Source: Dehalococcoidales bacterium (lineage in GTDB: Bacteria; Chloroflexota; Dehalococcoidia; Dehalococcoidales; Fen-1064). Taken from it: 49,241 nt of DNA. The DNA lies in NCBI GenBank assembly GCA_035529395.1, contig DATKWT010000043.1:1-49241 (forward strand). The letters run 5' to 3'. Positions 3,664 to 44,094 of this stretch are shown here, one piece after another; the stretch's first letter is position 1; the number at the start of each line of letters is the position of its first letter. The notes beneath the pieces were generated by a model. It saw only the letters and a list, made by a program, of their open reading frames with translations, was not told where the DNA came from and made no database searches. A program made the position numbers and the translations under genes.

Positions 3664-3954
3664 TCAGTCCAGCACTCTATGCAGGAACCAGCCGTCCCCA
3701 GGACGGCAGAGTTCATAGGTGCCATAACCGGTGTTCCGGGCATTGACTCTGACAAAGCAACGCGGCGGCTTCTCGTTCCACCAGCCAACCGGTTCTTGCC
3801 GGCAACTGAGAGCTTCTACAACACGATACAGGAGTTTGCGCCAGATGAAGGCATCTGGTAGCCAGATGAAGGCATCTGGTAGCCAGATGAAGGCATCTGG
3901 TATTTCGCCCCTATCAGTATGGGTTTCGACTGGTTCACCAATAAGCCTGGCCAT
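3664..3954 (-). CDS. DUF6504 family protein with in-frame triplicated heptapeptide
   Basis: A 96-residue protein. The start MARLIGEPVE, the central LYRVVEAL and the ending WFLHRVLD match the DUF6504 family, small proteins often encoded beside DnaE2/ImuB-type translesion genes. Biochemical function is unknown. ATG at 3954 is preferred because GGGGTGCC sits just upstream; a TTG at 3966 would add four residues. It is the first gene of the SOS unit, 20 bp ahead of dnaE2. Odd feature: residues PDAFIW(L) are present three times in tandem, encoded by a 21-bp unit at 3841-3903. One copy fits the family pattern (a hydrophobic stretch ending in W-R before LYRVVE); the other two look like an in-frame expansion. 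Confidence 0.8.
   Translation of the reverse strand: MARLIGEPVETHTDRGEIPDAFIWLPDAFIWLPDAFIWRKLLYRVVEALSCRQEPVGWWNEKPPRCFVRVNARNTGYGTYELCRPGDGWFLHRVLD
3841..3903 (+). repeat. Three tandem 21-bp units inside the DUF6504 gene
   Basis: The unit ccagatgaaggcatctgg plus three bases occurs at 3841-3861, 3862-3882 and 3883-3903. The 18-bp cores are identical, and only the final linker differs (tag, tag, tat). Each core is also an inverted repeat (CCAGATG-AAGG-CATCTGG), so each can form a 7-bp hairpin. The unit length is a multiple of three and keeps the reading frame. Confidence 0.97.
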
Positions 3955-5264: not shown

Positions 5265-5462
5265 CACATTCCGGGAGTGTATATCGTCGGTCCTAACGCC
5301 ACCTGCCTGATACCGGAAGCTGTGCCGGCAATGAGGCTGGATGCAATCTCACAGGAGATAGGCACCACCGTTCATGCCCACCCCACCCTTTCCGAAGCTG
5401 TTATTGAAGCAGTTCCGGACATCGCCGGCGAAAATCTGCATTCCATGTCAAGAAGTAAATAG
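5265..5462 (+). pseudogene. Dihydrolipoamide dehydrogenase (E3) C-terminal remnant
   Basis: An open stretch of about 62 codons beginning near GVYIVGPNAT and containing AMRLDA, HAHPTLSEA and a terminal tail matches only the last part of the dimerisation domain of dihydrolipoamide dehydrogenase (pyridine nucleotide-disulfide oxidoreductase). The HAHPT segment includes the active-site His of that family. The FAD and NAD domains and the redox disulfide are missing: an in-frame stop lies just upstream and a terminator of another gene immediately before. No ribosome binding site precedes the possible GTG at 5277. It is best read as a deletion relic. The 2-oxoacid dehydrogenase-like operon 3 kb downstream has no E3, so this may be a trace of a lost local copy. 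Confidence 0.7.
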
Positions 5463-8180: not shown

Positions 8181-8275
8181 AAATACAAAGTCGGAAAGAG
8201 GATGATTATGACTTAGAAGGAAATCAAGCTTGGTACGATAGTAAGGAAGTACAATAAATGGAGGTAAGGAAAACC

Positions 8276-9256
8276 ATGGAACTTCCATCCAAAGAGATTC
8301 TACTGAAGCTGTATCGGGACTTACTTACCGCACGGCGAGTAGAGGCCGAACTCTACTCAAGACAGGGCAATTTAGCCGGTAGCGGCGGAGGTGCCCATCG
8401 GGGTCCAGGTGAGGAGGTGATTCCGATTGCCTTCTGCAACAACTTGACTGAGACTGATTGCTTCTGCCCAAACTTCAGAACCGGCTTCTGCTTGTTTACC
8501 AAGCCTGGCTTCACCCTGGTCGATATTGTTGCTACGAGCATGGGGAAGACTGGCAAAGGCATACACGATACCCGGCGTACACCTGAATATGGCACGATGC
8601 CCGGCCAGGGCACACTGGGGGAGGGTAGCGTCAGGTATCTGGGCGCTGCCGCAGCCGCCAGTATGAAGAAGACCGGTGACATAGTTGTCTTCATCCAGGG
8701 GGATGGTGCCTCGAACCGTGCTCCCACCCATGAAGCGATGGCAGTGGCAGGGGCCTGGCAACTGCCGATAATCTTCGTCATCCAGAACAATCGTTACGGT
8801 ATGGGCACCGCGGTAGAGAAATCTTACAGCATTGAAGACCTGTCCTTGAGGGGTGTAGGTTACGGTTTCCCCCACGAGAGAGTGGACGGTAACGACATGA
8901 TAGCCATGTACCTGGTGGCCAAGAAGCATATTGAGAGGACACGAGCCGGCGGCGGGCCCAGCCTGATTGCGGCTGATACCTGGCGATTGAGACCACACTT
9001 TGAAGGGGACTCCCAGGTCTATCGGCCCAAGGGTGAAGTTGATGAGTGGTGGAAGAGAGAGCCATTGGGACGGTACCAGAAGGAGCTTATGGACCTGGGT
9101 GTCCTGACCGAAGAGGATGTCGACCGACTGGAGGCGGAGGTAAAGGCCGAGATTCAGGCGGCTTTTGATGAGGTAGAGGCACTGCCAGTATCAATACCAT
9201 CTTATAGGGCAGGCAGCCTGGAAGAACTTGAAAAAACTGCCATAGCCGAACTATAG
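8276..9256 (+). CDS. TPP-dependent dehydrogenase E1 alpha subunit, copy 1
   Basis: A 326-residue E1alpha of the acetoin/pyruvate dehydrogenase family. The thiamine diphosphate/Mg motif runs from GDGASN to the QNN at its end. The loop RLRPHFEGDSQVYRP resembles the acetoin-dehydrogenase pattern RWRGHxEGD. The subunit decarboxylates or cleaves a 2-oxo substrate with TPP, together with E1beta, and passes the acyl group to lipoamide. Oddity: the YR-x-HG segment of canonical E1alpha reads NFRTGFC here, so a His normally near TPP is missing. ATG 8276 is chosen because GGAGGTAAGG (8260-8269) lies 6 bp before it. E1beta copy 1 follows after 27 bp. The natural substrate is not evident. Confidence 0.85.
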   Translation: MELPSKEILLKLYRDLLTARRVEAELYSRQGNLAGSGGGAHRGPGEEVIPIAFCNNLTETDCFCPNFRTGFCLFTKPGFTLVDIVATSMGKTGKGIHDTRRTPEYGTMPGQGTLGEGSVRYLGAAAAASMKKTGDIVVFIQGDGASNRAPTHEAMAVAGAWQLPIIFVIQNNRYGMGTAVEKSYSIEDLSLRGVGYGFPHERVDGNDMIAMYLVAKKHIERTRAGGGPSLIAADTWRLRPHFEGDSQVYRPKGEVDEWWKREPLGRYQKELMDLGVLTEEDVDRLEAEVKAEIQAAFDEVEALPVSIPSYRAGSLEELEKTAIAEL

Positions 9257-9283
9257 ACTGGTTGTTAAGGAGAACGTACAGAA

Positions 9284-10276
9284 ATGGCTGTAATTAATTA
9301 TGTTGGGGCGATTAACCAGGCGCTGAAGGAAGAGATGCGCCGGGATGAGCGGGTGGTAATATGGGGGGAAGACATGATCTCAATGGACGGAGTTCATGGT
9401 CAGACCCGGGATATCTATAATGAGTTCGGTGGGGACAGAATCAGGGATACCCCTATCTGTGAGCAGGCAATAACTGGTATGACCATCGGGGCGGCTCACC
9501 GGGGGCTTAGACCGATAGGTGTCTTTATGAATGCCAGCTTTGGCCTCAGTGCCTTTGATGGTATGTTTCTGCAGCTGGGCTGCAGTGGCAGTGGTTTGCC
9601 GGTGGTACTCTATGGCGTTATCGCTGGGCCAAGAGAGGATAACGGCCACGGTACGTCTCCGGAAGCCCTGTGTATTCATGCGCCGTACCTGAAGGTAGTC
9701 ATGCCGTCAACTCCCTATGACGCTAAAGGGCTGTTCAAGACAGCTATCAGAGATGATAGTCCGGTGGTATTCTGGGACCATGCCTGGTGCTTCTTTATGG
9801 GCCATAAGGATGGCGCTATCGAACGTGGTGCCAACACTCAGGAAGTACCTGAGGAGGAATACCTCATTCCCTTTGGTGAGGCCGATATCAAGCGGGAAGG
9901 GTCTGATATTACCCTGGTGACCTTTTCATTTATGGTGCATCCGGCTCTGGCCGCGGCTCACAATCTGGCGAAAGAAGGCATAAGTGTTGAGGTTGTCGAC
10001 CTGCGCACACTTGTGCCCCTGGATGTAGAGACCATTGTCAAATCGACAAAGAAGACGGGGCGCCTTCTTGTTGTTCACGAAGCGATGAAGCGGGGCGGTA
10101 TTGCCGGTGAGATTATTTTCCGGGTACAAGAGGAGGCACCTGATTTGCTTGCGTCCTTGAAGACCCCCTTCAGGCGGCTGGCGGCTAAGAATCTGCCTCT
10201 CGATGCGGCCTTTGGTCCAATGCTTGTCCCTTCGGCGGAGACTATTGCTGCTGCTGTGAAGGAGATGGTAGTATAG
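9284..10276 (+). CDS. TPP-dependent dehydrogenase E1 beta subunit, copy 1
   Basis: A 330-residue E1beta with N-terminal pyrimidine-binding and C-terminal transketolase domains. The Glu that activates the TPP aminopyrimidine is in TPICEQAITGM. A His aligning with the QHSQ active-site His is in GHGTSPEALCIH. The C-terminal part has the usual VEVVDLRTLVPLDVETI and LLVVHEAMKRGG. Compared with canonical E1beta, the AAKxRYMSGGQ stretch is replaced by LQLGCSGSGLPVVLYG, so substrate or partner contacts probably differ. The start follows AAGGAGAA. It forms a heterotetramer with the alpha subunit by family analogy. Followed by a hairpin and the duplicated pair. Confidence 0.87.
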   Translation: MAVINYVGAINQALKEEMRRDERVVIWGEDMISMDGVHGQTRDIYNEFGGDRIRDTPICEQAITGMTIGAAHRGLRPIGVFMNASFGLSAFDGMFLQLGCSGSGLPVVLYGVIAGPREDNGHGTSPEALCIHAPYLKVVMPSTPYDAKGLFKTAIRDDSPVVFWDHAWCFFMGHKDGAIERGANTQEVPEEEYLIPFGEADIKREGSDITLVTFSFMVHPALAAAHNLAKEGISVEVVDLRTLVPLDVETIVKSTKKTGRLLVVHEAMKRGGIAGEIIFRVQEEAPDLLASLKTPFRRLAAKNLPLDAAFGPMLVPSAETIAAAVKEMVV

Positions 10277-10280
10277 GTGT

Positions 10281-10312
10281 AGAGCGCCCCCGCACAGATG
10301 TGAGGGGACGCA
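10281..10312 (+). promoter_or_regulatory. Imperfect intercistronic hairpin after E1beta copy 1
   Basis: Sequence around agcgcccccgcacagatgtg and ggggacgc folds into an imperfect GC-rich stem. It is the degenerate counterpart of the perfect hairpin after E1beta copy 2 and is followed by the same caaccctCAGAGAGTTC tail. There is no T tract, so it is more likely a processing, stability or attenuation element than a terminator. Confidence 0.5.
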
Positions 10313-10478
10313 ACCCTCAGAGAGTTCCAGAACAAGAAGCTGTAAACATTTATGAGGTGAGACTGCCTGCATCAGGAGTATCATCGGTGATATATGGTGT
10401 GTTAATGGGGGTGTTAACCATGAGTTGAGAGGAGTCGAAGGTCCAGCCTTAGAAAAGCAAGAAGGAGATAAGAGAATC

Positions 10479-11438
10479 ATGGAATTACCATCAAAAGAGA
10501 TTCTATTGAAGCTGTATCGGGACCTGCTTATCTCAAGGCGGGTAGAGGCCGAACTCTGGTCAAAACAGGGCAATCTAGCCGGCAGCGGCGGAGGTGCTCA
10601 TCGGGGTCCAGGTGAGGAGGTGATTCCGATTGCCTTCTGCAACAACTTAACTGAGACTGATTGCTTCATGCCTAACTTCAGGACATGGGTCTGCACGCTT
10701 AGCAAGCCTGGCTTCACCCCGGCCGATATCATTGCTACGAGCCTGGGGAAGACTGGCAAGAGGAACCCCTGGGCTGCCCCCGAATATGGCATGCTGGGTG
10801 GTGGCGGCACATTGGGAGAGGCTAGCGTCAGGTATGTGGGCGCTGCCGTGGCGTCTACTATCAAGAAGACTGGTGATATAGTCGTCTTCATCCAGGGGGA
10901 TGGTGCCTCGAACCGTGCTCCCACCCATGAAGCGATGGCAGTGGCAGGGGCCTGGCAACTGCCGATAATCTTCGTCATCCAGAATAATCGTTACGGCATG
11001 GGCACCTCGGTAGAGAAGTCTTACAACATTGAAGACCTGTCCTTGAGAGGTGTAGGTTACGGTTTCCCCCACGATAGAGTGGACGGTAACGATATGATAG
11101 CCATGTACCTGATGGCCAAGAAGCACGTTGAAAGATGTCGAGCCGGCGGCGGGCCCAGCCTGATTGCGGCCGATACCTGGCGATTGAGGCCACACTTCGA
11201 AGGTGACTCCCAGATATATCGGCCTAAAGGTGAAGCTGAAGAGTGGTACAAGAAAGAGCCATTGGGACGATACCAGAAGGAGCTTATGGACCTGGGTATC
11301 CTTACCGAAGAGGATGTCGACCGGCTGGAGGCGGAGGTAAAGGCCGAGCTTCAGGCGGCTTTTGATGAGGTCGATAAGCTGCCGGCAAGGACTGGTGTCT
11401 ACGAACAGATGGAGAAACTTGCCATCGCCGAACTATAG
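10479..11438 (+). CDS. TPP-dependent dehydrogenase E1 alpha subunit, copy 2
   Basis: A 319-residue paralogue of the gene at 8276. The TPP motif region (GDGASN to QNN) is identical and the RLRPHFEGDSQ loop is kept. Differences are crowded into roughly residues 64-130: NFRTWVCTLSK instead of NFRTGFCLFTK, and a rewritten, shorter segment before PEYG, plus several changes before KKTGDIV. The His of the canonical YRxHG motif is again absent. ATG 10479 follows GAAGGAGA; an upstream in-frame ATG at 10425 would add 18 unrelated residues. E1beta copy 2 starts 27 bp downstream with an intergenic sequence nearly identical to that of copy 1, so the pair arose by tandem duplication. Confidence 0.85.
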   Translation: MELPSKEILLKLYRDLLISRRVEAELWSKQGNLAGSGGGAHRGPGEEVIPIAFCNNLTETDCFMPNFRTWVCTLSKPGFTPADIIATSLGKTGKRNPWAAPEYGMLGGGGTLGEASVRYVGAAVASTIKKTGDIVVFIQGDGASNRAPTHEAMAVAGAWQLPIIFVIQNNRYGMGTSVEKSYNIEDLSLRGVGYGFPHDRVDGNDMIAMYLMAKKHVERCRAGGGPSLIAADTWRLRPHFEGDSQIYRPKGEAEEWYKKEPLGRYQKELMDLGILTEEDVDRLEAEVKAELQAAFDEVDKLPARTGVYEQMEKLAIAEL

Positions 11439-11465
11439 ACTGGTTGTTAAGGAGAACATACGGAA

Positions 11466-12449
11466 ATGGCTGTAATTAATTATGTTGGGGCGATTAACCA
11501 GGCGCTGAAAGAAGAGATGCGCCGGGATGAGCGGGTGGTAATATGGGGGGAAGACATGATCTCATTGAACGGTGTTCATGGTCAGACCAAGGACATCTAT
11601 GATGAGTTCGGTGGGGACAGAATCAAGGATACCCCTATCTGTGAGCAGGCAATAGCCGGCATGACCATCGGGGCGGCTCAGCGGGGACTTAGACCGATAG
11701 GTGTCTTCATGAACTGGGGGTTCGGCCTTTGTGCATTTGATGGCGTGTTTCTGCAGTTGGGCTGCAAAGGTCATAGTTGGCCGGTGGTGCTGTATGGCGT
11801 TATCGCCGGGCCAGGAGAGGATAACGACCACGGTATGTCGCCGGAGGCCCTGCTTATTCATGCACCGTACCTGAAGGTAGTCATGCCGTCGACTCCCTAT
11901 GACGCTAAGGGGCTGTTCGCGACAGCCATCAGGGATGACGGCGCGGTGATGTTTTTGGACCATGCCTGGTGTTTCTATATGGGACATAAGGATGGCGCTA
12001 TCGAACGTGGCGCCAACACTCAGGAAGTACCTGAGGAGGAATACCTCATTCCCTTTGGTGAGGCCGATATCAAGCGGGAAGGGTCCGATATTACCCTGGT
12101 AACCTACTCATTTATGGTGCATCCGGCTCTGGCCGCGGCTCACAATCTGGCGAAAGAGGGCATAAGTGTTGAAGTTGTCGACCTGCGCACTATTGTGCCC
12201 CTGGATGTAGATGCCATTGTCAAATCGGCTAAGAAGACGGGACGCCTGCTTATCGTGCACGAGGCGATGAAGCGGGGTGGTGTTGCCGGTGAGATTGCTT
12301 TCCGGGTACAAGAGGAAGCACCTGATTTGCTTGCATCCTTGAAAACCCCTATCAGGCGGCTGGCGGCTAAGAATATGCCCCTCATGGGGACCCCGGTACT
12401 TGTCCCTTCGGCGGAGACTATTGCTGCTACTGTGAAGGAGATGGTCTAG
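11466..12449 (+). CDS. TPP-dependent dehydrogenase E1 beta subunit, copy 2
   Basis: A 327-residue paralogue of the gene at 9284. The catalytic Glu (TPICEQAIAGM) and His (DHGMSPEALLIH) are kept. The N-terminus and C-terminal domain are almost the same as in copy 1. Changes concentrate at FMNWGFGLCAFDGVFLQ (copy 1: FMNASFGLSAFDGMFLQ), GCKGHSW (copy 1: GCSGSGL) and around FLDHAWCFYMG. These lie in parts that line the active-site cleft in E1beta structures. It probably pairs with E1alpha copy 2 to give a second E1 of altered specificity. This functional split is an inference. Confidence 0.87.
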   Translation: MAVINYVGAINQALKEEMRRDERVVIWGEDMISLNGVHGQTKDIYDEFGGDRIKDTPICEQAIAGMTIGAAQRGLRPIGVFMNWGFGLCAFDGVFLQLGCKGHSWPVVLYGVIAGPGEDNDHGMSPEALLIHAPYLKVVMPSTPYDAKGLFATAIRDDGAVMFLDHAWCFYMGHKDGAIERGANTQEVPEEEYLIPFGEADIKREGSDITLVTYSFMVHPALAAAHNLAKEGISVEVVDLRTIVPLDVDAIVKSAKKTGRLLIVHEAMKRGGVAGEIAFRVQEEAPDLLASLKTPIRRLAAKNMPLMGTPVLVPSAETIAATVKEMV

Positions 12450-12457
12450 TTATAGAG

Positions 12458-12483
12458 CGCCCCCTGACAAATGTCAGGGGGCG
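12458..12483 (+). promoter_or_regulatory. Perfect 12-bp intercistronic hairpin after E1beta copy 2
   Basis: cgccccctgaca (12458-12469) and tgtcagggggcg (12472-12483) pair perfectly around two bases. No T run follows; the tail taacccttagagagttc leads into the ribosome binding site of the lipoyl gene. It could be an mRNA-stabilising or processing structure that sets E1 to E2 ratios. Confidence 0.75.
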
Positions 12484-12519
12484 TAACCCTTAGAGAGTTC
12501 TAGAAAAGGAGTTAGAAGT

Positions 12520-12786
12520 ATGCATGAAGTGAGAATACCCAAGTTGGGAACTCAGATAGAGGATGCTGAAATCACCGAATGGGTAGCTGCGGAAGGGGAG
12601 AAGGTGACTGAGCGCCAGGTCCTTGTTGTGCTGGAGACGGAAAAAAGCAGCTATGATTTGGAGTCCGAGTTCAAAGGTATTCTGCATATCATTGTCGAGG
12701 CCTCGGATGAGAGGGTTGACGCTGGTGTGCTTATTGCTGTCCTGGCGGACTCCGAAGAGGAATACGAAAAAATTAAGTCTATGTGA
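12520..12786 (+). CDS. Stand-alone lipoyl (biotinyl/lipoyl-attachment) domain protein
   Basis: An 88-residue protein that is one lipoyl domain. The start HEVRIPKLGTQIEDAEITEW is the usual first strand, and the hairpin turn ETEKSSYDLES carries the lysine to be lipoylated. It would act as the swinging arm that carries acyl groups from E1 to E2. In most 2-oxoacid dehydrogenases this domain is fused to E2; here it is a separate gene 9 bp ahead of a short E2 core. The start follows AAAGGAG. Only one lipoyl gene serves both E1 pairs in this operon. Confidence 0.88.
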   Translation: MHEVRIPKLGTQIEDAEITEWVAAEGEKVTERQVLVVLETEKSSYDLESEFKGILHIIVEASDERVDAGVLIAVLADSEEEYEKIKSM

Positions 12787-12795
12787 GGGCCTGAA

Positions 12796-13599
12796 ATGAC
12801 TACTGAAGAAAAGAAGGAACCAACAGTCCCGGGCTCAGTGGTTGATAGCAAGAAGGTCAAGGAAGTTATCCCGCTAAGGGGAATCAGGAGGACTCTTGCT
12901 ACTCACATGCACCGCAGCCTTCAAGAATCGGCACAACTATCCGGCTCTTCGGGAACAGACATGACGGAGATGATTAAGTGCCGCGAGACCCTGAATTCGA
13001 AAGAAAAAGAAACCGGCATTCACTATACCTGGACCGATTTGTTTGTCAAAATAGCGGCTGAAGCTCTCAGGCTTGTTCCCACGATGAATTCCAGCCTGAT
13101 TGAGAGAGAGATAATCATCTGGGATGATATTAACATTGGCGTTGCACTGGATTTCGAGATGAGGGATGGCAGACGGGGTCTGATTGTGCCGGTGGTGCGT
13201 AATGCCGATAAGAAATCTATCGCGGACGTTCACAACTTTCTGGAGGAGATTAAAGAGAAGGGCAAAGTTGGCAAACTCATGCCGGATGATACTGCTGGCG
13301 GCACCTTTACCGTGACCAATACCGGTGCTCTGGGAGGTGGTCGTGGCTCCAGAAAAGGCACAGCCACCGGCATGGCCAGCGCCAGCACCCCTATCCTAAA
13401 TCAGCCGCAGGTCGGTATCTGGGGAATGGGGGGTTACAGTGATGCGGCGGTGGTGGTTGATGGCCAGGTCGTCGTTCGGCCGGTTCTGTACCACCATCTC
13501 ACCTTTGACCACCGGGTACTTACCGGGGCAGACAGCGGCATGTTTGGTGGCGCCCTGCATCGGTTAATGCTCAATCCAGGTCCGTTGCTCCTGGAATAA
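12796..13599 (+). CDS. 2-oxoacid dehydrogenase acyltransferase (E2) catalytic core
   Basis: A 267-residue protein covering the CAT-like acyltransferase domain. Seen: VIPLRGIRRTLATHMHRSL, TDLFVKIAAEALRLVPTMN, NIGVALDFEMRDGRRGLIVPVV, TFTVTNTGALG, and the active-site region YHHLTFDHRVLTGAD. The catalytic His of DHR is present, but the usual Asp of HRVxDG is Thr here (HRVLTG), with an Asp two residues later. The lipoyl domain is a separate gene, and no peripheral subunit-binding domain is recognisable, which raises the question of how E1 and E3 dock. The ATG is 9 bp after the lipoyl gene stop, and it is the last gene of the operon. No E3 gene is nearby except the remnant at 5265. Confidence 0.83.
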   Translation: MTTEEKKEPTVPGSVVDSKKVKEVIPLRGIRRTLATHMHRSLQESAQLSGSSGTDMTEMIKCRETLNSKEKETGIHYTWTDLFVKIAAEALRLVPTMNSSLIEREIIIWDDINIGVALDFEMRDGRRGLIVPVVRNADKKSIADVHNFLEEIKEKGKVGKLMPDDTAGGTFTVTNTGALGGGRGSRKGTATGMASASTPILNQPQVGIWGMGGYSDAAVVVDGQVVVRPVLYHHLTFDHRVLTGADSGMFGGALHRLMLNPGPLLLE

Positions 13600-17877: not shown

Positions 17878-18047
17878 TGGATAGCTAATAGTTCGTGGCC
17901 GATTGGCGTGTATTGACAAGCCCCCGGTAAGGACTAAACTCAAGTTCCAAAATGAGGCATACAGCATATCATTGGCGACAAAGCAGTGAAGGTCAGGATA
18001 CCTCATTGCGAATTGAAATGGGAAATACTAATTAGAGGTGGTTTATT

Positions 18048-19115
18048 ATGAAGGCAGTATCTATTGCTGGCAAAGGTAAGGTTCAAATTGAAGAAATCCC
18101 GAAACCCGAGGTGCGCCCCGGTACGCTCTTAATAAAGGTTACCTACTGTTCGTTGTGTGGCAGTGACATAGAACGGGTTTACGGGGCTCATTGGGATACT
18201 AATGACCCCCGGTTGGAGAGTATCAAAGGGTCTATCCTTGGTCATGAGTGGGTTGGCACGGTGGAAGAAATAGGTGAAGGGGTTGAAGGCTGGTCTGTTG
18301 GCGAGCGTACCGTTGATGGAAGGCTCTTTTGCGGACGGTGCTGGTACTGTGTCAGGGGGATGCCTTTTATGTGCATGGGGGGACGGGTAAGAGGTCATCC
18401 CTATGATGACGTTCAGTCGGACACCCCTCCCCCTCCACAAAGGTATGGTGCTCTGACCGAATATGTTGTCCGCCCCGCTGCTGGCCGCCTCAAAGTGGCC
18501 GACCATGTCTCCGATGAAGAAGCTGCCATGTCTGAACCACTGGCCACCGGAGTAACCTCTGTTCTTAATGCCGAGGTAAGGCTGGCTGATGCGGCGGTAA
18601 TCATTGGTGTCGGTCACATTGGTCTCTCTGTACTGGCGGCGGCAAAGGCTGCTGGCGCAGCGCCGATCATTGCCATCGACAAGATTGACGCTCGCCTGGA
18701 GATTGCCCGGCAGATGGGTGCCAATATCACTCTCAACGCCGATAAAACCGATGTCATTAAAGAGGTGGTCGCTATCACCGAAGCCGGCCCCGACGTTATC
18801 TTTCTCGGCGTCAGTTCCCAGGCTCCCGGCATTGTTGAACAGGCTTTTGAAATGGTCAGGTATCATGGCAGGATTATGATCACCGGCAATGCGGCACCAG
18901 CGACTCTTCAGCCGGGAAAATGGCTGACCAAAGAGGTGAGAGTCGAGGGGACCGTTCATATGGGCGAATCAATGATTCCGGCGATGAAGCTGATAGAATA
19001 TGGGCAGGTCAATCTCAAGCCGATGGTCACCGAGGTCATCCCGCTCGAGGAAGCTCAGCGTGCATTTGATTCCCTCCATGATGGGACAAATGTGGCTGTG
19101 GTATTAAAACCTTAG
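18048..19115 (+). CDS. Zinc-dependent medium-chain alcohol dehydrogenase
   Basis: A 355-residue MDR enzyme. The catalytic zinc site is formed by Cys in YCSLCGSD and His-Glu in GHEWVG. The structural zinc lobe is recognisable in FCGRCWYCVRGMPFMC. The Rossmann segment AAVIIGVGHIGLSVLAAAKAAGA is followed by an Asp (AIDKID), suggesting NAD. Members oxidise sugar alcohols, threonine or other secondary alcohols, and the exact substrate cannot be told. The start follows GAGGTGG. Its last residues and TAG stop lie exactly at the edge of a decayed MITE-like copy (see 19112), so the C-terminus may have been reset by an insertion. Confidence 0.87.
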   Translation: MKAVSIAGKGKVQIEEIPKPEVRPGTLLIKVTYCSLCGSDIERVYGAHWDTNDPRLESIKGSILGHEWVGTVEEIGEGVEGWSVGERTVDGRLFCGRCWYCVRGMPFMCMGGRVRGHPYDDVQSDTPPPPQRYGALTEYVVRPAAGRLKVADHVSDEEAAMSEPLATGVTSVLNAEVRLADAAVIIGVGHIGLSVLAAAKAAGAAPIIAIDKIDARLEIARQMGANITLNADKTDVIKEVVAITEAGPDVIFLGVSSQAPGIVEQAFEMVRYHGRIMITGNAAPATLQPGKWLTKEVRVEGTVHMGESMIPAMKLIEYGQVNLKPMVTEVIPLEEAQRAFDSLHDGTNVAVVLKP

Positions 19116-19235
19116 CGGAATCCGAAACCAGATTCTGCCGGTGTCCCCCAGATACAATCTTTCCCCCCTTCCTCGGTAGGAAGGCTCTTCCTGGACAGGA
19201 AGGGGGTCAGGGGGATAGTCGAAAGGGTTTTTCAT
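19112..19235. mobile_element. Decayed partial copy of the MITE-like element (copy B)
   Basis: ttagcggaatccgaaacc, the following block with cagattctgccggtgtccccc, the run of C, ttcctggacaggaagg and the right part gtcgaaagggtttttc align with the second half of copies A and C. The left half and an internal block are missing. The element starts inside the alcohol dehydrogenase stop codon. Confidence 0.8.
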
Positions 19236-19245
19236 AGGCTTGCTA

Positions 19246-19288
19246 GAATGACAGGGACTGTAAAGGCATTTGTAAGACACTACACTGG
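19246..19288. repeat. Short dispersed repeat (shared with 48021-48067)
   Basis: agaatgac followed by tgtaaaggcatttgtaagac and actacact matches the block at 48021-48067 with few differences. In both places it abuts the MITE-like element, but on opposite sides. Nothing coding is seen in it. Confidence 0.6.
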
Positions 19289-19487
19289 CAACACGATATG
19301 GCCCATTGTTTCCTCTGAGCAATGTAAACGTTGCCACGTCTGTTGCTCCACAGGCATACTATGGTTGACACGATTTATTGCGGGTAGTAATATACGCTAC
19401 AAGCGGAATAGTGAGTGCTTGAACGAAAGGAGGTGAGCGGCCTCCACCTTTTCTGCTCGCTACATGCTGGTTAGCCATCACCAGCTC

Positions 19488-19517
19488 TTGCCAGAGGCAT
19501 GGTGAGAGTGCTATACT
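19488..19517 (+). promoter_or_regulatory. Promoter of the thiamine operon
   Basis: TTGCCA (19488-19493) and TATACT (19512-19517) are separated by 18 bp and stand about 30 bp ahead of the TPP riboswitch. Confidence 0.6.
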
Positions 19518-19544
19518 CGATTCACGTTAACAACTTAATAATGG

Positions 19545-19652
19545 CGGGGAGCTTGGGGAACCAGGCTGAGAGGATGTGCTTGATCATAGAGCGTGATCAC
19601 CCACATCGACCCTGATAACCTGATCCGGGTAATACCGGCGGAGGGAATGTAA
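19545..19652 (+). promoter_or_regulatory. TPP riboswitch (THI element)
   Basis: The sequence contains the two conserved THI blocks: CTGAGA at 19566-19571 in the pyrimidine-sensing arm, and the CTGATCCGGGTAATACCGGCG plus GAGGGAA pattern across 19617-19646 in the pyrophosphate-sensing arm. A variable hairpin (gatgtg/cacatc with inner tgatca/tgatca) between them is the optional P3 extension. It is followed at once by an intrinsic terminator, which suggests transcriptional control: with TPP bound the terminator forms and the downstream genes are off. All five downstream genes fit thiamine supply. Confidence 0.96.
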
Positions 19653-19666
19653 GCACGGCAACACAG

Positions 19667-19698
19667 AGGGCTACCCTCCATAAAGGGTAGCCCTTTTT
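19667..19698 (+). terminator. Riboswitch-controlled intrinsic terminator
   Basis: agggctaccct (19667-19677) pairs with agggtagccct (19684-19694) and is followed by TTTTT to 19698. It lies between the TPP aptamer and the thiN start, the usual expression platform. Confidence 0.92.
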
Positions 19699-19716
19699 GT
19701 ATGTGGAGTAAACCCG

Positions 19717-20361
19717 ATGAGAGCCTTAATACTGGTCAATGGCGAACTGTATCAACCCGATGTCCTGCGAAGCAGAATCCGCGCCGAGACATTCGATCTG
19801 GTGCTCGGTGCTGATAGGGGCGCACGCTATGCCTGTACCCTCAATGTCGCCCTTGATGCGATCATCGGCGATATGGATTCGCTCTCAGATTTGGAGCAAC
19901 AGGGCATCGGTAGCACTAAGTTTGTCTCCTATCCGGCAGAAAAAGACGAGACCGATCTTGAATTGGCGCTTCTCTACGCTGAGGAACAGGGAGCCGATCA
20001 GATTGTAATGGTCGGTGCAATGGGTGGGCGTATGGATATGACCATCTCCAACATCCTGCTGATAACTCATGCAAGCCTCGATTCATGCAGAATCGAAGTG
20101 TGGCACGGGGAACAAACGGGATGGGTCATCAAGCCGCCGGGTGGAGATATTTCCGGGCATCCCGGAGATACGGTCTCATTGATTCCACTGGGTGGCGATG
20201 CCACAGGCATCACGACGAAGGGATTGAAATACCCCCTTAAGGATAAACGACTCACCTTTGGCCCGGCACGGGGAATCAGTAACCTGCTGGAAAAACCATC
20301 CGCCCATATCAAACTATCAGGGGGTATTCTTCTGGCGGTCCATACTCCCGGCAGGGCATGA
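19717..20361 (+). CDS. thiN: Thiamine diphosphokinase (thiamine pyrophosphokinase)
   Basis: A 214-residue enzyme that converts thiamine and ATP to thiamine diphosphate. Family motifs seen in order: LGADRGARYA, AIIGDMDSL, PAEKDETDLELAL, VGAMGGRMDMTISN (usual GGRxDH), and a C-terminal substrate-binding domain with GDTVSLIPL and GLKYPL. The length is typical. It is the first gene after the TPP riboswitch, and its stop overlaps an in-frame start of the next ORF, so it is tightly coupled. The cofactor it makes is required by the E1 enzymes at 8276-12449. Confidence 0.95.
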   Translation: MRALILVNGELYQPDVLRSRIRAETFDLVLGADRGARYACTLNVALDAIIGDMDSLSDLEQQGIGSTKFVSYPAEKDETDLELALLYAEEQGADQIVMVGAMGGRMDMTISNILLITHASLDSCRIEVWHGEQTGWVIKPPGGDISGHPGDTVSLIPLGGDATGITTKGLKYPLKDKRLTFGPARGISNLLEKPSAHIKLSGGILLAVHTPGRA

Positions 20362-20381
20362 GAAAGGTAAGGAGGAAGGTT

Positions 20382-20684
20382 ATGACAGAAAAACGGACCA
20401 TGAACGTAGGTGTGCAGGTCTTGCCTCTAGTTGAGGATGTCTACTACATCGTCGATAAGGCAATAGAGGCCATTCAGGCCAGCGGCGTCAAATATGAGGT
20501 CGGGCCATTGGAAACGACCCTGGAAGGCGATGATCTGGACCAACTGCTTGAGGTAGCCAAGTCCGCGCACCGTGCTTGTTTTGAGGCGGGTGCGGGCAAA
20601 GTAGTGACCATCATCAAGATCGCTGACGCACTGGAAGGCACCTCGATTGAGGGGAAAGTCGGCAAGTATAGAAAGGTAGATTAG
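20382..20684 (+). CDS. Thiamine-binding protein, MTH1187/YkoF type (DUF77)
   Basis: A 100-residue protein. VGVQVLPLVEDVYYIVDKAIEAI, VKYEVGPLETTLEGD, HRACFEAGAGKVVTIIKI and a closing GKVGKYRK match the MTH1187 family, ferredoxin-like folds shown in some members to bind thiamine or its pyrimidine part. It may act as a soluble partner of the ABC importer encoded just after it. ATG 20382 is chosen because AAGGAGG (20369-20375) lies 6 bp upstream; the longer start at 20358 would overlap thiN and lie before the ribosome binding site. The stop codon overlaps the GTG start of the permease by one base. Confidence 0.87.
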   Translation: MTEKRTMNVGVQVLPLVEDVYYIVDKAIEAIQASGVKYEVGPLETTLEGDDLDQLLEVAKSAHRACFEAGAGKVVTIIKIADALEGTSIEGKVGKYRKVD

Positions 20685-21472
20685 TGAACTGGCGCAGGGA
20701 TTTCGTCCCTCCCACAGCATTGATCGCCATCCTTATCATCGGCTGGTATTTCGTGGCGAAGGTCAGCGGACTGAGTTCGTTTATCCTGCCTACTCCGCTT
20801 GATGTCATCCAGGCCGGATGGGAAACGCGAGCTCTCTTACTGGACGCCATCGGCACCACGTTGCTGGCGACCGGGATCGGGTTGTTGTTGGCCCTCATAG
20901 CGGGGATTGGGATAGCCGCCCTTGTGGATTTCTGGCCTCTGGCGCATCGCGCCCTGTATCCGATTCTGGTCGTGTCACAGACCATCCAGATACTCGCTAT
21001 TGCCCCGATCCTGATCATCTGGTTCGGGTTTGGTGTAACGCCCACGATATTGATCGTGGTGTTATTCTGCTTCTTCCCGTTGGCCATCAGCACCGCTGAT
21101 GGCCTGACATCCTCGGACCCGGAGTTGATTGCTTTGCTCCGCGCGATGGGGGCAAAGAAGAGACAGATATGGCGAATGGTCCGCCTGCCTTCGGCTTTGC
21201 CATCGTTCTTTTCCGGCCTGCGGTTGGCCGTAACCTATAGCGTGGTCGCGGCAACCATCGGGGAATGGGTGGGCGGCTCTCCCGGATTGGGATTGTATAT
21301 GCTCCGCTCAAAGAACGCGCTGGCAACCGACCAGGTATTCGTTGCCATGTTCATCACGTCACTATTGAGTGTAGGCCTGTTCATGACAGTCTATGGTATC
21401 GAACGGTTAACCCTGCCCTGGTACCACTCCACACAACGAACGGAGCAATGGGAAGGGCCTGGAATCTATTAA
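20684..21472 (+). CDS. ABC transporter permease (thiamine/precursor importer, ThiX-like)
   Basis: A 262-residue inner-membrane protein with about six helices and the binding-protein-dependent permease loop around ELIALLRAMGAKKRQIWRMVRLPSALP, whose E-A/x3-G pattern docks on the ATPase. It belongs to the SsuC/TauC/ThiX group used for sulfonates, taurine and pyrimidine thiamine precursors. The riboswitch and neighbours argue for thiamine or hydroxymethylpyrimidine uptake. The GTG start at 20684 overlaps the previous stop, indicating translational coupling. A solute-binding lipoprotein and ATPase follow. Confidence 0.9.
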   Translation: MNWRRDFVPPTALIAILIIGWYFVAKVSGLSSFILPTPLDVIQAGWETRALLLDAIGTTLLATGIGLLLALIAGIGIAALVDFWPLAHRALYPILVVSQTIQILAIAPILIIWFGFGVTPTILIVVLFCFFPLAISTADGLTSSDPELIALLRAMGAKKRQIWRMVRLPSALPSFFSGLRLAVTYSVVAATIGEWVGGSPGLGLYMLRSKNALATDQVFVAMFITSLLSVGLFMTVYGIERLTLPWYHSTQRTEQWEGPGIY

Positions 21473-21490
21473 ACTACGGAGGAATATAAT

Positions 21491-22471
21491 ATGAAACGTC
21501 TGTCTTTAGTTACCGTACTACTGCTCATGGCACTGATAACTACTTCCTGCGGAAGCCCCGTAGATGAGGAACTTACTCCTGTTATGTTCATCTTGGATTG
21601 GGTCCCGAACACCAATCACACCGGAATCTTCGTGGCGGAAGCAGAAGGCTACTTTGAGGAAGCTGGCCTCGACGTTGAGATCATCCAACCCGGCGAAGTA
21701 CGCGCTGAAGCCGCAGTCGCCGGCGATGCCGCTGATTTCGGCATCAGCTTCCAGGAACAGGTCACGCTCGCACGCGCTGATGATGTGCCCATCGTCTCTA
21801 TCGCGGCAGTGCTCCAGCATAACACATCCGGTTTTGCCTCCGCCGCCCATCTGAACGTCACCAGTCCGGCAGATTTCGAGGGTCTACGCTATGGGGCATG
21901 GGGTTCGCCGTTTGAGTATCCCACGCTTGAAGTTCTGATGAGTTGCGCGGGCGCCGATTTCAGCCAGCTTGAGATCGTGAATACAGGTTGGTCCGACCCT
22001 TTGGCCTTGATTGCTGAAGGCCAGATCGACATGGCATGGATATTCTACGGCTGGCAGGGCTTTCAGGCGCAGCAGCAGGGTGTTGCTCTCAATGTGGTGA
22101 TGATGGAAGACTACTTCGACTGCATTCCCGACTACTACACCCCGGTGGTTATCGCCAGTGAGGATACCATTGCCAATCGACCGGAAGTCGTCCGAGCCCT
22201 CATGAAAGCTCTCTCACGCGGGTATGATTTTGCGACAGAGAATCCGGGCAAGGCCGCCGATATTCTGCTTGCCGCCGTACCTGAACTCGATGCTGAACTC
22301 GTCAAAGCAAGTCAGGACTGGCTTTCGGAATACTACAAGGCTGACGCACCACGTTGGGGTGAACAGAAAGAAAGCGTCTGGCAGGAGTATGCCGATTGGA
22401 TGGTTGAATACGGCATTCTGTCAGCCTCCATCTCTGCCTCTGATGCCTTCACCAACGAGTTTTTGCCTTAA
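21491..22471 (+). CDS. ABC transporter substrate-binding lipoprotein (NMT1/ThiY-like)
   Basis: A 326-residue secreted binding protein. The N-terminus has a basic start, a hydrophobic core and a lipobox ending in ITTSC (Cys about 20), so it should be lipid-anchored outside the membrane. The mature part opens with VMFILDWVPNTNHTGIFVAEAEGYFEEAGLDVEI, characteristic of NMT1/ThiY-type proteins that bind thiamine pyrimidine precursors. YGAWGSPFEYPTLEVLM and DMAWIFYGWQG are further family segments. The start follows GGAGGA. Substrate assignment leans on the TPP riboswitch and thiN; nitrate or sulfonate specificity is unlikely in this context. Confidence 0.92.
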   Translation: MKRLSLVTVLLLMALITTSCGSPVDEELTPVMFILDWVPNTNHTGIFVAEAEGYFEEAGLDVEIIQPGEVRAEAAVAGDAADFGISFQEQVTLARADDVPIVSIAAVLQHNTSGFASAAHLNVTSPADFEGLRYGAWGSPFEYPTLEVLMSCAGADFSQLEIVNTGWSDPLALIAEGQIDMAWIFYGWQGFQAQQQGVALNVVMMEDYFDCIPDYYTPVVIASEDTIANRPEVVRALMKALSRGYDFATENPGKAADILLAAVPELDAELVKASQDWLSEYYKADAPRWGEQKESVWQEYADWMVEYGILSASISASDAFTNEFLP

Positions 22472-22546
22472 AGTATAGATTGCCATAATCCCCTCTAAGT
22501 GCCGAAGATTTTAAGGAGGGATTCTTATCATTAATAATGAGTCGCT

Positions 22547-23311
22547 ATGACCACACCACGTATCGAATTGAGACATGTCAGTAAGACCTTCTCCGGGATT
22601 AATCACGCTGTCCCGGCATTAAAAGATATCTCTTTCAAGGTTATGCCCGGCGAGTTCGTCACCATCATTGGGGCAAGCGGAAGCGGCAAAAGTACGCTTT
22701 TTAATCTCTGTGTAGGGCTCCTTGAACCCGATGAGGGCGAAATCATTATCGATGGCGAAAGGCCGGAAAATCGCACGGGGATGGTAGGCTATATGCCTCA
22801 GCGTGACTTACTTCTCCCATGGCGAAGCGTGCTGGATAACGTCCTCATCCCATTGGAGATTCAGGGCATCTCCCGAAGAGAATCACGACAGAAAGCCCTT
22901 GAGATGCTCCCTCACTTTGGATTGGAAACCTTTGAGAAGGAATATCCCTCGGCTCTCTCCGGGGGCATGCGCCAGCGTGCCGCCCTCCTGAGAACATGGC
23001 TCATGGGACGCTCTACGCTACTCCTTGATGAACCATTCGGTGCATTGGATGCCCTGACTCGCAAAGAGCTTCAAAACTGGCTATTGAGGGTCTGGCAGGA
23101 ATTCGGGCGGACAGTGATGTTCATCACCCATGATGTTGAAGAAGCCGTCTATCTTGCCGACCGGGTTATCGTGTTAAGCGCCCGCCCGGGCGAAATCAAA
23201 CGTGAATTTAAGATCGATTTACCACGCCCCCGGCGTCAGGGGATGATCGCAGAACCTGAATTCGGTGAACTGGTACGAGAATTACTCGCCGAGTTAGGGG
23301 TTGATGTTTGA
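22547..23311 (+). CDS. ABC transporter ATP-binding protein (ThiZ-like)
   Basis: A 254-residue ATPase of the SsuB/TauB/ThiZ class. Walker A GASGSGKST, Q-loop YMPQRDLLLPW, signature LSGGMRQRAALLRTW, Walker B TLLLDEPFGALD and switch His in MFITHDVEEA are all intact. It energises the importer with the permease at 20684 and the lipoprotein at 21491. The gap of 75 bp to the binding-protein gene contains no terminator, so it is probably the last gene of the thiamine operon. The stop codon overlaps the possible TTG start of an IS3-type transposase stub. Confidence 0.95.
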   Translation: MTTPRIELRHVSKTFSGINHAVPALKDISFKVMPGEFVTIIGASGSGKSTLFNLCVGLLEPDEGEIIIDGERPENRTGMVGYMPQRDLLLPWRSVLDNVLIPLEIQGISRRESRQKALEMLPHFGLETFEKEYPSALSGGMRQRAALLRTWLMGRSTLLLDEPFGALDALTRKELQNWLLRVWQEFGRTVMFITHDVEEAVYLADRVIVLSARPGEIKREFKIDLPRPRRQGMIAEPEFGELVRELLAELGVDV

Positions 23312-41297: not shown

Positions 41298-42491
41298 ATG
41301 GACATAGTTCCCAACGTAGTCCGGACTACTACCCGAAGACCGAATAAGGTGACTATGAGAAGCGAAAGGATTCTGATTGTTGAGGCTGACAAGCGCCTCA
41401 GGCTCTCCAGGGTCGACGTTCTCACGCGGGACGGCTACTCCGTTACCGGCGTTGCTACCATTGAAAAGGCGGTCCGGGTAGCCAGAGAGGAGCCTTTGGA
41501 ACTTCTCATCATTGGTAGAGAGCAGCCGGTATTGCTGGACGCACTTCCAGGCCAGTTCCCACCGGAGATGAGTATTCTGATGATAGTTCCAGAAAATACC
41601 ATTGGCCGTATCACCGAGAATGCCGGGACAGGAATATGCTCCTTCCTGATTCCACCGGTCACACCACGCAGGTTGAAGGAAAGGGTTGCTCGGGTTATCG
41701 ATAACGCAAGGCAGGTCAAGGAGAGCATCCGGGGCGAACTCCTTACCTCCCTGGAGAACAGCAGGATGTCCGGCAGCGGTAAAAAGCAGTACATTCAAAT
41801 GCAGAGACTACTCCAGGAAATATCCACAGCTCAGGAGAATGAGCGCCGTCGGGTAGCCATTGAAATCCACGATGGTGTTGCCCAGTGGATGGTCGGGGCC
41901 TCATATGGTATCAAGGCATGCAGCATCCTCGTTTCTGAACTGAGACTGGACGACCTGCAGCGAGAACTGGCCGAGACCGGACAGGCGGTGCAGAGAAGTA
42001 TCAAAGAACTGCGTCGCACCATTGCTAACCTGCGCCCGCTCCCGCTGGAGGAACTGGGACTTGTCGCTGCCATTCGCCAGGTAGCGACAACACTTGCCGA
42101 AGATGGTATCATATGTCACACTGAGGTAGACGTAGACCTGCCCAGGCTTTCTATCCCTGAGGAGACTACAACCTACCGGATAATACAGGAGATGCTGAAC
42201 AATGTCAGGCGGCACTCCGGGGCGAGTGAGGTAACCGTGCACATGCAATACCACGACGGTATGTACTCGGTGGCTGTCAGCGATAACGGGCAGGGCTTCG
42301 CCCCGGAAGAGGTGCTGAACAATGAGATGTCGGCGATGCACATGGGCCTTATCGGTATGAAGGAACGCGCCGGACTGCTCGGCGGCTACCTGACAATAGA
42401 CAGCGGTCACGGAAAGGGAACCGCTATGCGTTTTTCCTTCCCCGTTTCCATTCGGGAGACTGTGAAGGCAACATCAACAGTACGAGATTGA
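41298..42491 (+). CDS. NarL-type sensor histidine kinase with N-terminal pseudo-receiver
   Basis: A 397-residue cytosolic kinase. Residues about 22-140 fold like a receiver (RILIVEADKRLRLSRVDVLTRDGYSV) but the phospho-acceptor position reads LLIIGRE, so Asp is missing and the domain cannot be phosphorylated in the usual way. The kinase part is HisKA_3: ENERRRVAIEIHDGVAQW carries His191, followed by a HATPase domain with EMLNNVRRHSGAS, VSDNGQGF and GLIGMKERAGLLGG. Such kinases pair with LuxR-type regulators; one starts 12 bp downstream. Start is uncertain: ATG 41298, or ATG 41355 with AAGGTGA just upstream. Confidence 0.9.
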   Translation: MDIVPNVVRTTTRRPNKVTMRSERILIVEADKRLRLSRVDVLTRDGYSVTGVATIEKAVRVAREEPLELLIIGREQPVLLDALPGQFPPEMSILMIVPENTIGRITENAGTGICSFLIPPVTPRRLKERVARVIDNARQVKESIRGELLTSLENSRMSGSGKKQYIQMQRLLQEISTAQENERRRVAIEIHDGVAQWMVGASYGIKACSILVSELRLDDLQRELAETGQAVQRSIKELRRTIANLRPLPLEELGLVAAIRQVATTLAEDGIICHTEVDVDLPRLSIPEETTTYRIIQEMLNNVRRHSGASEVTVHMQYHDGMYSVAVSDNGQGFAPEEVLNNEMSAMHMGLIGMKERAGLLGGYLTIDSGHGKGTAMRFSFPVSIRETVKATSTVRD

Positions 42492-42502
42492 GGGATGTAG
42501 CG

Positions 42503-43144
42503 ATGAGTGAATCACGAACTATTAAAGTACTGCTGGTCGATGACCATCATGTGGTCCGTGAGGGACTGCGGCGGATACTGGAAATGGACGATGCAATAGA
42601 CGTTATCGGCGAGGCCAGGAGTGGCGAAGAAGCCGTGGCCAAAGCTGTGGCGCTGTCACCGGACGTCATTGTTATGGATCTCAAGATGCCCGGGATGGAC
42701 GGCATTGCCGCCACCCGCGAGATAAAGGGGAAATTACCCGATGTCAACGTGCTGGTGCTGACGCTCTATGCCGAGGACTTCGTGAAGCAGGCTATGGAAG
42801 CCGGCGTAGCCGGGTACCTGCTCAAGGACAGTGATTCCGAGCAGATAACCAGGGGAGTCCACCAGGTATATGAAGGCCTTTCGCCGATTGCACCATCTCT
42901 CACCCGGGGTCTGGTGACCGAGTTTGCCAAGCTCAGCCGGAGCAGTCGCTCCTCAGTTCTTACCCCACGGCAGGTGGATATACTCAAGCTGATTGCCGAG
43001 GGGGAGAGCGGCAAGTCTATCGGGGAACACCTCTTCCTGAGCACATCCACGGTGAAGCGGGAGGTACGGCACATCTTTGACAAGCTGGGTGTGAACGACC
43101 GCGCCCACGCTGTCTCCGAGGCTATGAAGCGGAGCCTTCTCTAG
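42503..43144 (+). CDS. NarL/FixJ-type response regulator, copy 1
   Basis: A 213-residue regulator. Receiver: VDDHHVVREGL, phospho-acceptor Asp59 in VIVMDLKMPGMDG, LTLYAED and LLKDSDSEQI. The C-terminal LuxR helix-turn-helix (about 147-205) has LTPRQVDILKLIAEGESGKSI and LSTSTVKREVRHIFDKLGVNDR. It is probably phosphorylated by the kinase at 41298. ATG 42503 is preferred over the TTG at 42488. Strong similarity to the gene at 43411 shows a duplication. Confidence 0.94.
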   Translation: MSESRTIKVLLVDDHHVVREGLRRILEMDDAIDVIGEARSGEEAVAKAVALSPDVIVMDLKMPGMDGIAATREIKGKLPDVNVLVLTLYAEDFVKQAMEAGVAGYLLKDSDSEQITRGVHQVYEGLSPIAPSLTRGLVTEFAKLSRSSRSSVLTPRQVDILKLIAEGESGKSIGEHLFLSTSTVKREVRHIFDKLGVNDRAHAVSEAMKRSLL

Positions 43145-43410: not shown

Positions 43411-44094
43411 ATGAATACTGGGCTACTTTCCGATACCATTGCAGCCATAACGGCGGAGAAAACCGGGGTTATCCGTGTGCTTGTCGTCGATGACCATCAC
43501 GTGGTACGTGAAGGTCTGCGGCGGATGCTTGAACTGGAAAGCAGCATACAGGTAGTCGGTGAGGCAAGAAGCGGCGAAGAGGCTATCGCCAAGGCTATCT
43601 CGCTGTCACCGGATGTCATCGTCATGGACCTTAAGATGCCCGGGATGGACGGGATCACCGCCACTCGTGAGATAAAACAGAGAATGCCGGATATAGGCAT
43701 ACTGGTACTGACACTGTACGCCGAAGATTATGTGAAGCAGGCCGTGGAGGCCGGTGTATCCGGCTACCTGCTCAAGGACAGTGACTGCGAGCAGATAACA
43801 CGCGCCATAGAAGAAGTATATCAAGGCCTTTGCCCGATAGCCCCCTCTCTCACCCGGGAGCTGGTCATGGAATACGCCGAGCTCAGCCGGACCAGCCGGT
43901 CTTCGATACTAACCAAACGACAGATCGAGATACTGAAGCTGATTGCCGATGGTGAGAACGGCAAGGAAATCGGTAGCCGTCTTTTCATCAGTACCTCCAC
44001 CGTGAAGCGGGAAATCCGCCAGATCCTTGCCAAACTCAAGGTAAGCGACCGCGCCCAGGCAGTATCCGAGGCAATCAAGAGAAGACTCATCTAG
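43411..44094 (+). CDS. NarL/FixJ-type response regulator, copy 2
   Basis: A 227-residue paralogue of the regulator at 42503. Receiver with VDDHHVVREGL, Asp73 in VIVMDLKMPGMDG, LTLYAEDYVKQAVEAG and LLKDSDCEQI; C-terminal LuxR domain with LTKRQIEILKLIADGENGKEI and ISTSTVKREIRQILAKLKVSDR. It has an N-terminal extension of about 15 residues before the receiver. The ribosome binding site GAGAGAGGGCAGG precedes the ATG. Unlike copy 1 it has its own 265-bp upstream region with phased repeats, so it may be expressed separately. Confidence 0.94.
   Translation: MNTGLLSDTIAAITAEKTGVIRVLVVDDHHVVREGLRRMLELESSIQVVGEARSGEEAIAKAISLSPDVIVMDLKMPGMDGITATREIKQRMPDIGILVLTLYAEDYVKQAVEAGVSGYLLKDSDCEQITRAIEEVYQGLCPIAPSLTRELVMEYAELSRTSRSSILTKRQIEILKLIADGENGKEIGSRLFISTSTVKREIRQILAKLKVSDRAQAVSEAIKRRLI

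Follow-up and report, generated by a model that had tools for sequence, protein, structure and literature searches.

A tandemly duplicated E1 module from a divergent clade in a Dehalococcoidales genome, with local divergence peaks suggestive of gene conversion

The E1 components of 2-oxoacid and acyloin dehydrogenase complexes are well described at the residue level. In the two-subunit enzymes, roles have been assigned to the TPP/Mg motif, a YR-type arginine, a glutamate and a histidine of the β subunit, and a histidine in an α loop (PMC2663715; PMC6168537). The positions reported for individual enzymes include Y102α, I142α, I144α, F85β, E59β and H128β in Geobacillus stearothermophilus (Bst) E1p (PMC2663715), α Phe61, His63, Tyr89, Met200 and His263 together with β Met82 in human PDH (PMC6168537), and α Phe85, Met87, Tyr113, Met146 and Leu164 in BCKDH (PMC12655727). 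Furthermore, two E1s can share one E2: human 2-oxoglutarate and 2-oxoadipate E1s act on one E2o (PMC10003691). A separate line of work concerns duplicated genes under gene conversion, for which a local divergence peak is a recognized signature (reviewed in PMC3924837; also stated in PMC3728101).

Here, we analyze a locus that touches on all of these subjects. It lies in a contig of 49,241 nucleotides from a Dehalococcoidales bacterium (GCA_035529395.1, DATKWT010000043.1), which we refer to as the window. On the forward strand, the genes follow the order A1–B1–A2–B2–lipoyl domain–E2, and no E3 gene is encoded alongside them (Table 1).

Table 1. Genes and sequence features of the duplicated E1 locus (positions in the window)
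Feature	Position	Strand	Length	Remarks
A1, E1α copy 1	8276..9256	+	326 aa	Pfam E1_dh, 206 bits; PDB 1w85_A, E=8e-30
B1, E1β copy 1	9284..10276	+	330 aa	Transket_pyr + Transketolase_C; PDB 3duf_B, E=2e-64
A2, E1α copy 2	10479..11438	+	319 aa	Pfam E1_dh, 194 bits (scan from residue 2)
B2, E1β copy 2	11466..12449	+	327 aa	Pfam; PDB 3duf_B, E=3e-65
Lipoyl carrier domain, stand-alone	12520..12786	+	88 aa	Pfam Biotin_lipoyl, 58.7 bits
E2 acyltransferase, catalytic domain only	12796..13599	+	267 aa	Pfam 2-oxoacid_dh, 206.7 bits
A1 rewritten stretch, residues 64–130	8465..8665	+		A2 counterpart about 10668–10862
Identical tract in both copies, TPP-motif region	8687..8787	+	101 bp	A2 counterpart 10884–10984
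B1 divergent stretch, residues 84–124	9533..9655	+		Elevated dN and dS across residues 73–108
Hairpin 3' of B1, duplicated with the module	10284..10311	+		z -2.67; repeat family D4
Hairpin 3' of B2	12457..12484	+		12-bp perfect stem; z -6.51

The two E1α–E1β modules lie head to tail as units of about 2.07 kb (8269–10338 and 10472–12511) that differ at 246 of 2040 aligned positions and are thus 87.9% identical in DNA sequence. This bears out the duplication proposed in a first-pass annotation of the locus, whose quoted motifs, α indel and coordinates we recovered exactly. At the protein level, A1 and A2 are 83.6% identical and B1 and B2 87.8%, and the longest identical run between the units, the 101-bp tract in Table 1, has a permutation p<1/3000. 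The same annotation described the intergenic sequences as nearly identical, which holds for the α–β spacers but not for the DNA upstream of A1 and A2, which is unlike. The presence of two near-identical E1 modules with localized changes is confirmed. Each E1β gene is followed by a hairpin, and these hairpins might possibly set E1 expression relative to that of the lipoyl domain and E2.

The genome is fragmented into 191 contigs and probably derived from a metagenome, and the contigs of its relatives break in the same gene, as one might expect if the tandem were an assembly artefact. We nevertheless regard such an origin as extremely improbable, as both copies reside on a single contig, flanked by unique sequence at either end and separated by a 134-bp spacer that is also unique, and as the upstream flank of A1 is conserved in two relatives, G001 and G002.

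The α subunits match E1_dh, and the β subunits Transket_pyr and Transketolase_C, above the curated cut-offs. A1 scores far under the curated cut-offs for pyruvate dehydrogenase E1α (208 vs 411 bits for TIGR03181; 178 vs 394 bits for TIGR03182). A predicted model (pLDDT 82, pTM 0.84) confirms the E1 fold, and its β half compares with 1um9_B at a target-normalized TM of 0.91. Where fused α–β sequences were aligned with MAFFT, we took in only full-length rows that were in frame or fused. Aligned with solved E1s and with canonical E1s of the same genus and order, both copies keep the catalytic set of R68, D143, N172 and H241 in α and of E60 and H122 in β; A1 more fully retains H41, F67–R68, GDG142–144, N172, M176 and H241, and B1 retains E60 and H122. 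Because the cofactor and catalytic positions are kept in each copy, both are probably active.

The two pairs fall within a divergent E1 clade without the usual HRGHGH and KGGSMH signatures. Most of the canonical E1α sequences that we fetched, including one from the sister species, contain HRGHGH...AKG and KG(K/R)GGSMH. Neither HRGHGH nor KG(K/R)GGSMH occurs in A1, A2 or any other clade member; FRT(G/W/Y)..C..(T/S/A)K and a variable loop stand in their place. Clade members are less well conserved than canonical E1s at residues 64–75 (0.39 vs 0.63) and 93–105 (0.24 vs 0.43), while most other α segments are more conserved in the clade. This variability across the entire clade would also suit a scenario in which one copy is turning into a pseudogene or a non-catalytic partner, and in which the divergence reflects lost constraint. 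Given, however, that both copies are open, that all mapped catalytic positions are kept and that the overall dN/dS is 0.26–0.33, we consider such decay very unlikely.

The clade is patchily distributed. At E<=1e-60, members turned up in 5 of the 156 genomes searched from the order and in one further genome among 393 of the class; among 400 genomes of the phylum, only the genome studied here matched. This genome encodes a third member on contig 131, in the order E1α–E1β–lipoyl, and two other genomes of the order hold four to about six members each. One contig of the order, with the arrangement β'–lipoyl'–α–β–lipoyl–E2, is another example of E1 modules arrayed in series ahead of a single E2. A wider contig search with exact short peptides, which by its nature cannot show absence, returned only canonical E1s of <=48% identity, and a literature search on E1s in Dehalococcoidia found nothing relevant. 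An E1β insert of 11–12 residues (FMGHKDGAIERGA; 9767–9840 in B1 and 11948–12022 in B2) is confined to B1, B2 and the third paralogue, being absent from the other clade members and the solved E1s compared. In another genome (G055 L129, 6950–10979), two canonical E1 pairs stand in tandem before one E2 and E3, so that such tandems also occur outside the divergent clade.

The amino-acid differences between the copies are not spread evenly along the proteins, but are clustered in both α (p<0.0002) and β (p=0.0088). In α, the clusters comprise residues 64–130 and the C-terminal tail (301–326), the latter with indels; in β, they comprise residues 84–105 and 304–313, with smaller ones at 117–130 and 152–171. 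The suggestion that the changes focus on one stretch of each subunit was thus correct in that the named regions are real, yet it overlooked further clusters elsewhere, including those at both C-termini.

The α changes adjoin the aligned position of Bst Y102 and human Tyr89 (F67 in A1) and lie immediately before Bst I142/I144, which correspond to BCKDH Ser162/Leu164 and to G112/L114 in A1. They also fall in a loop at about residues 95–102 of A1, which we take, on BCKDH α numbering, to hold Met146. In β, the changes A84W, S85G, G121D and T124M flank human Met82, Bst F85 (F86 in B1) and the catalytic H128 (H122 in B1). The α differences are overrepresented at <=6 residues from substrate- or pyrimidine-side positions (p=0.023, or p=0.004 without the tail; the test used positions 113 and 115 instead of 112 and 114, with an effect expected to be slight), and are depleted near the Mg, diphosphate and loop-His positions (0.02 vs 0.17 expected). 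The enrichment of β differences near active-site positions is not significant (p=0.11–0.22). The placement of the α changes at the active site, originally made by family analogy, is upheld. The C-terminal clusters of both subunits do not fit a pocket reading. On family analogy, this reading is otherwise plausible, and α residues 64–130 align with substrate- and cofactor-side positions of solved E1s.

Silent differences are unevenly distributed as well: dS lies between 0 and 0.2 in most protein-identical tracts, and between 0.4 and 0.8 in many rewritten tracts. At codons for the same amino acid, silent differences occur at 22/84 sites beside the amino-acid-difference clusters and 10/96 away from them in α (p=0.0065), and at 22/84 and 11/104 in β (p=0.0067), a 2.5-fold higher rate beside the clusters in both genes. 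A circular-shift test of the coupling between silent and replacement differences gave p=0.012 for α and p=0.033 for β, and each gene shows local peaks of both replacement and silent divergence. Silent clustering taken alone is not significant in α (p=0.49), and some orthologue controls likewise show silent clustering.

In the rewritten stretches, dN/dS is not clearly >1. We reject positive selection alone as an explanation, since dN is not clearly above dS there. The mechanism implied by the earlier annotation, in which selection alone rewrote these stretches in a recent duplicate, also fits less well: dS is high in the same places, and the sister species points to conversion as the process that homogenized the rest.

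In this sister species (G001), an A1 orthologue lies beside the same upstream genes. Across residues 63–133, the paralogues A1 and A2 differ at 52/207 nucleotides, compared with 9/213 between A1 and its orthologue; outside this segment, the respective values are 23/336 and 22/336. The interaction between type of comparison and region is significant for all sites (p=0.0002), but not for silent sites only (p=0.13). Directly next to the segment, the paralogues are closer to each other than the orthologues are, both at residues 134–183 (6/150 vs 9/150) and at residues 43–62 (1/60 vs 6/60; pooled, 7/210 vs 15/210).

In our view, these observations are best read, with somewhat better than even confidence, as a divergence peak under gene conversion combined with selection for difference, rather than as plain positive selection. 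A TPP-dependent α2β2 E1 module of the divergent clade would have been duplicated in tandem, and conversion between the copies would hold most of both genes alike. Selection for two different pockets would purge conversion tracts extending across the pocket segments (about residues 64–130 in α and 81–130 in β), leaving islands in which replacement and silent differences both accumulate.

A less probable but still sizeable chance falls to a history without conversion, in which the duplication is slightly older than the G000/G001 split and was followed by fast replacements in the pocket under positive or relaxed selection. This would account for the equal paralogue and orthologue distances outside the segment, and for the finding that replacements between the A1 orthologues also lie within it (4/4, compared with 5/26 of the silent changes, p=0.005), a pattern that also speaks for our preferred reading. 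Likewise, A1 does not group with A2 in segment trees of the flank, and a flank AU test does not reject a grouping of A1 with its orthologue. Such a history does not predict that these segments should also be enriched in silent differences (11/43 vs 5/64, p=0.024). Furthermore, a second relative, G002, seems to combine states derived from A1 with others derived from A2, which would place the duplication before G002, and at residues 134–183 the 6/150 differences between A1 and A2 are far below the 21/150 between A1 and G002.

The α sequence of G002, which branches earlier than G001, is a mosaic with A1-derived states at residues 16–70, A2-derived states at 81–114 and again A1-derived states at 122–130. 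Such a mosaic would fit conversion between the copies, but the sequence carries an in-frame stop and may represent a collapsed assembly. Together with the block-like borders of the segment, this mosaic makes recombination plausible, and with several paralogues present in the genome and the order, the segment could in principle have been imported into one copy from a third diverged paralogue or from foreign DNA. Such an import seems unlikely to us, because across the segment, the distances of A1 and A2 to the third paralogue are about the same, as are those to G359.

Assemblies often break at repeats. In G001, G002 and G359, the contig breaks off within or shortly after near-identical tracts, for which reason a second copy is likely in these genomes as well. 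A complete second copy was not found assembled in any relative searched, nor were orthologues of the lipoyl domain and E2 of the locus found in G001 or G002.

Returning to the genes downstream of the E1 pairs, the stand-alone carrier has its lipoyl lysine within ETEKSSYDLE, and the E2 possesses neither lipoyl nor subunit-binding domains. The E2 motif is FDHRVLTG, with DHRVLTG where DHRxxDG is usual, and the protein has a glycine-rich insert of roughly 10 aa that is absent from nine E2s compared. A full-length E3 was not found in the genome's own assembly; a sister species encodes one together with a canonical E1/E2 operon. A C-terminal remnant of a dihydrolipoamide dehydrogenase, about 59 aa long, lies on the forward strand at 5265–5441, upstream of the E1 genes; in G002 (C178:149–298), this gene is likewise degraded and contains a stop.

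In the likely course of the reaction, each E1 would bind TPP, decarboxylate a 2-oxo acid (or cleave an acyloin) and acylate the free lipoyl domain, E2 would move the acyl group from the carrier to CoA, and an E3 encoded elsewhere would reoxidize the lipoyl group. The first-pass annotation pictured two E1s feeding one lipoyl carrier and one E2; the gene order agrees with this picture, which lacks an E3 at its side. From these sequences, we infer two isoenzymes that may differ in specificity and share one carrier and E2. A more speculative extension, which we consider improbable, is that α1/α2 and β1/β2 pair freely through subunit contacts kept by conversion; because the active site sits between the α and β subunits, this would yield four composite pockets and thereby a combinatorial E1. 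Under such free pairing, the clade would be using a hypervariable pocket stretch for substrate diversification.

Several further features of the surroundings deserve mention. About 7 kb downstream of the E1s are genes that resemble thiamine salvage: a putative thiamine pyrophosphokinase-like gene is followed by a ThiXYZ-like ABC transporter (19717–23311, assigned by eye). In G001 (L112), the block 17958–21228 is inverted and joined beside 5276, so the surroundings of the E1 locus have been rearranged. Two similar two-component response regulators adjoin each other at 42488–43144 and 43411–44094, representing another tandem duplication, and a small ORF upstream of 4082 contains three tandem copies of a short coding repeat, QMKASGS (at about 3780–3860).

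If the proposed interplay of conversion and selection is true, the locus would give a theory examined mostly in eukaryotes, by which selection marks functional sites through resistance to conversion, a bacterial example with two subunits, and the islands would pinpoint specificity-determining residues of E1 without an assay. More generally, the expansion in a few lineages of an unstudied E1 clade that has dropped signatures present in most of the E1α subunits fetched here suggests that new 2-oxoacid or acyloin substrates may exist there.

The closest parallels to this pattern are the human red/green opsins and copepod GOT1, which share the near-identical flanks and the local peak of replacement and silent differences at functional positions (PMC3924837; PMC3728101). 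They also show mosaic alleles, to which the G002 α sequence may correspond, unless it is an assembly collapse. Our case differs from them in being a bacterial two-gene module, represented by a few fragmentary genomes. As an enzyme, it resembles the α2β2 E1s of PDH, BCKDH and acetoin DH in its E1_dh and Transket_pyr/C domains, the GDG...NN TPP motif, β Glu60/His122 and α His241, as well as in the gene order E1α–E1β–lipoyl–E2, but differs in the replaced E1α signatures, an E2 without lipoyl domain and the absence of E3 from the locus. Finally, it recalls the human system in which two E1s of different specificity serve one E2, an arrangement proposed here from gene order. The human 2-oxoglutarate and 2-oxoadipate E1s, however, are encoded by separate diverged genes, whereas the E1s described here stand in tandem and are close to 90% identical outside the islands.
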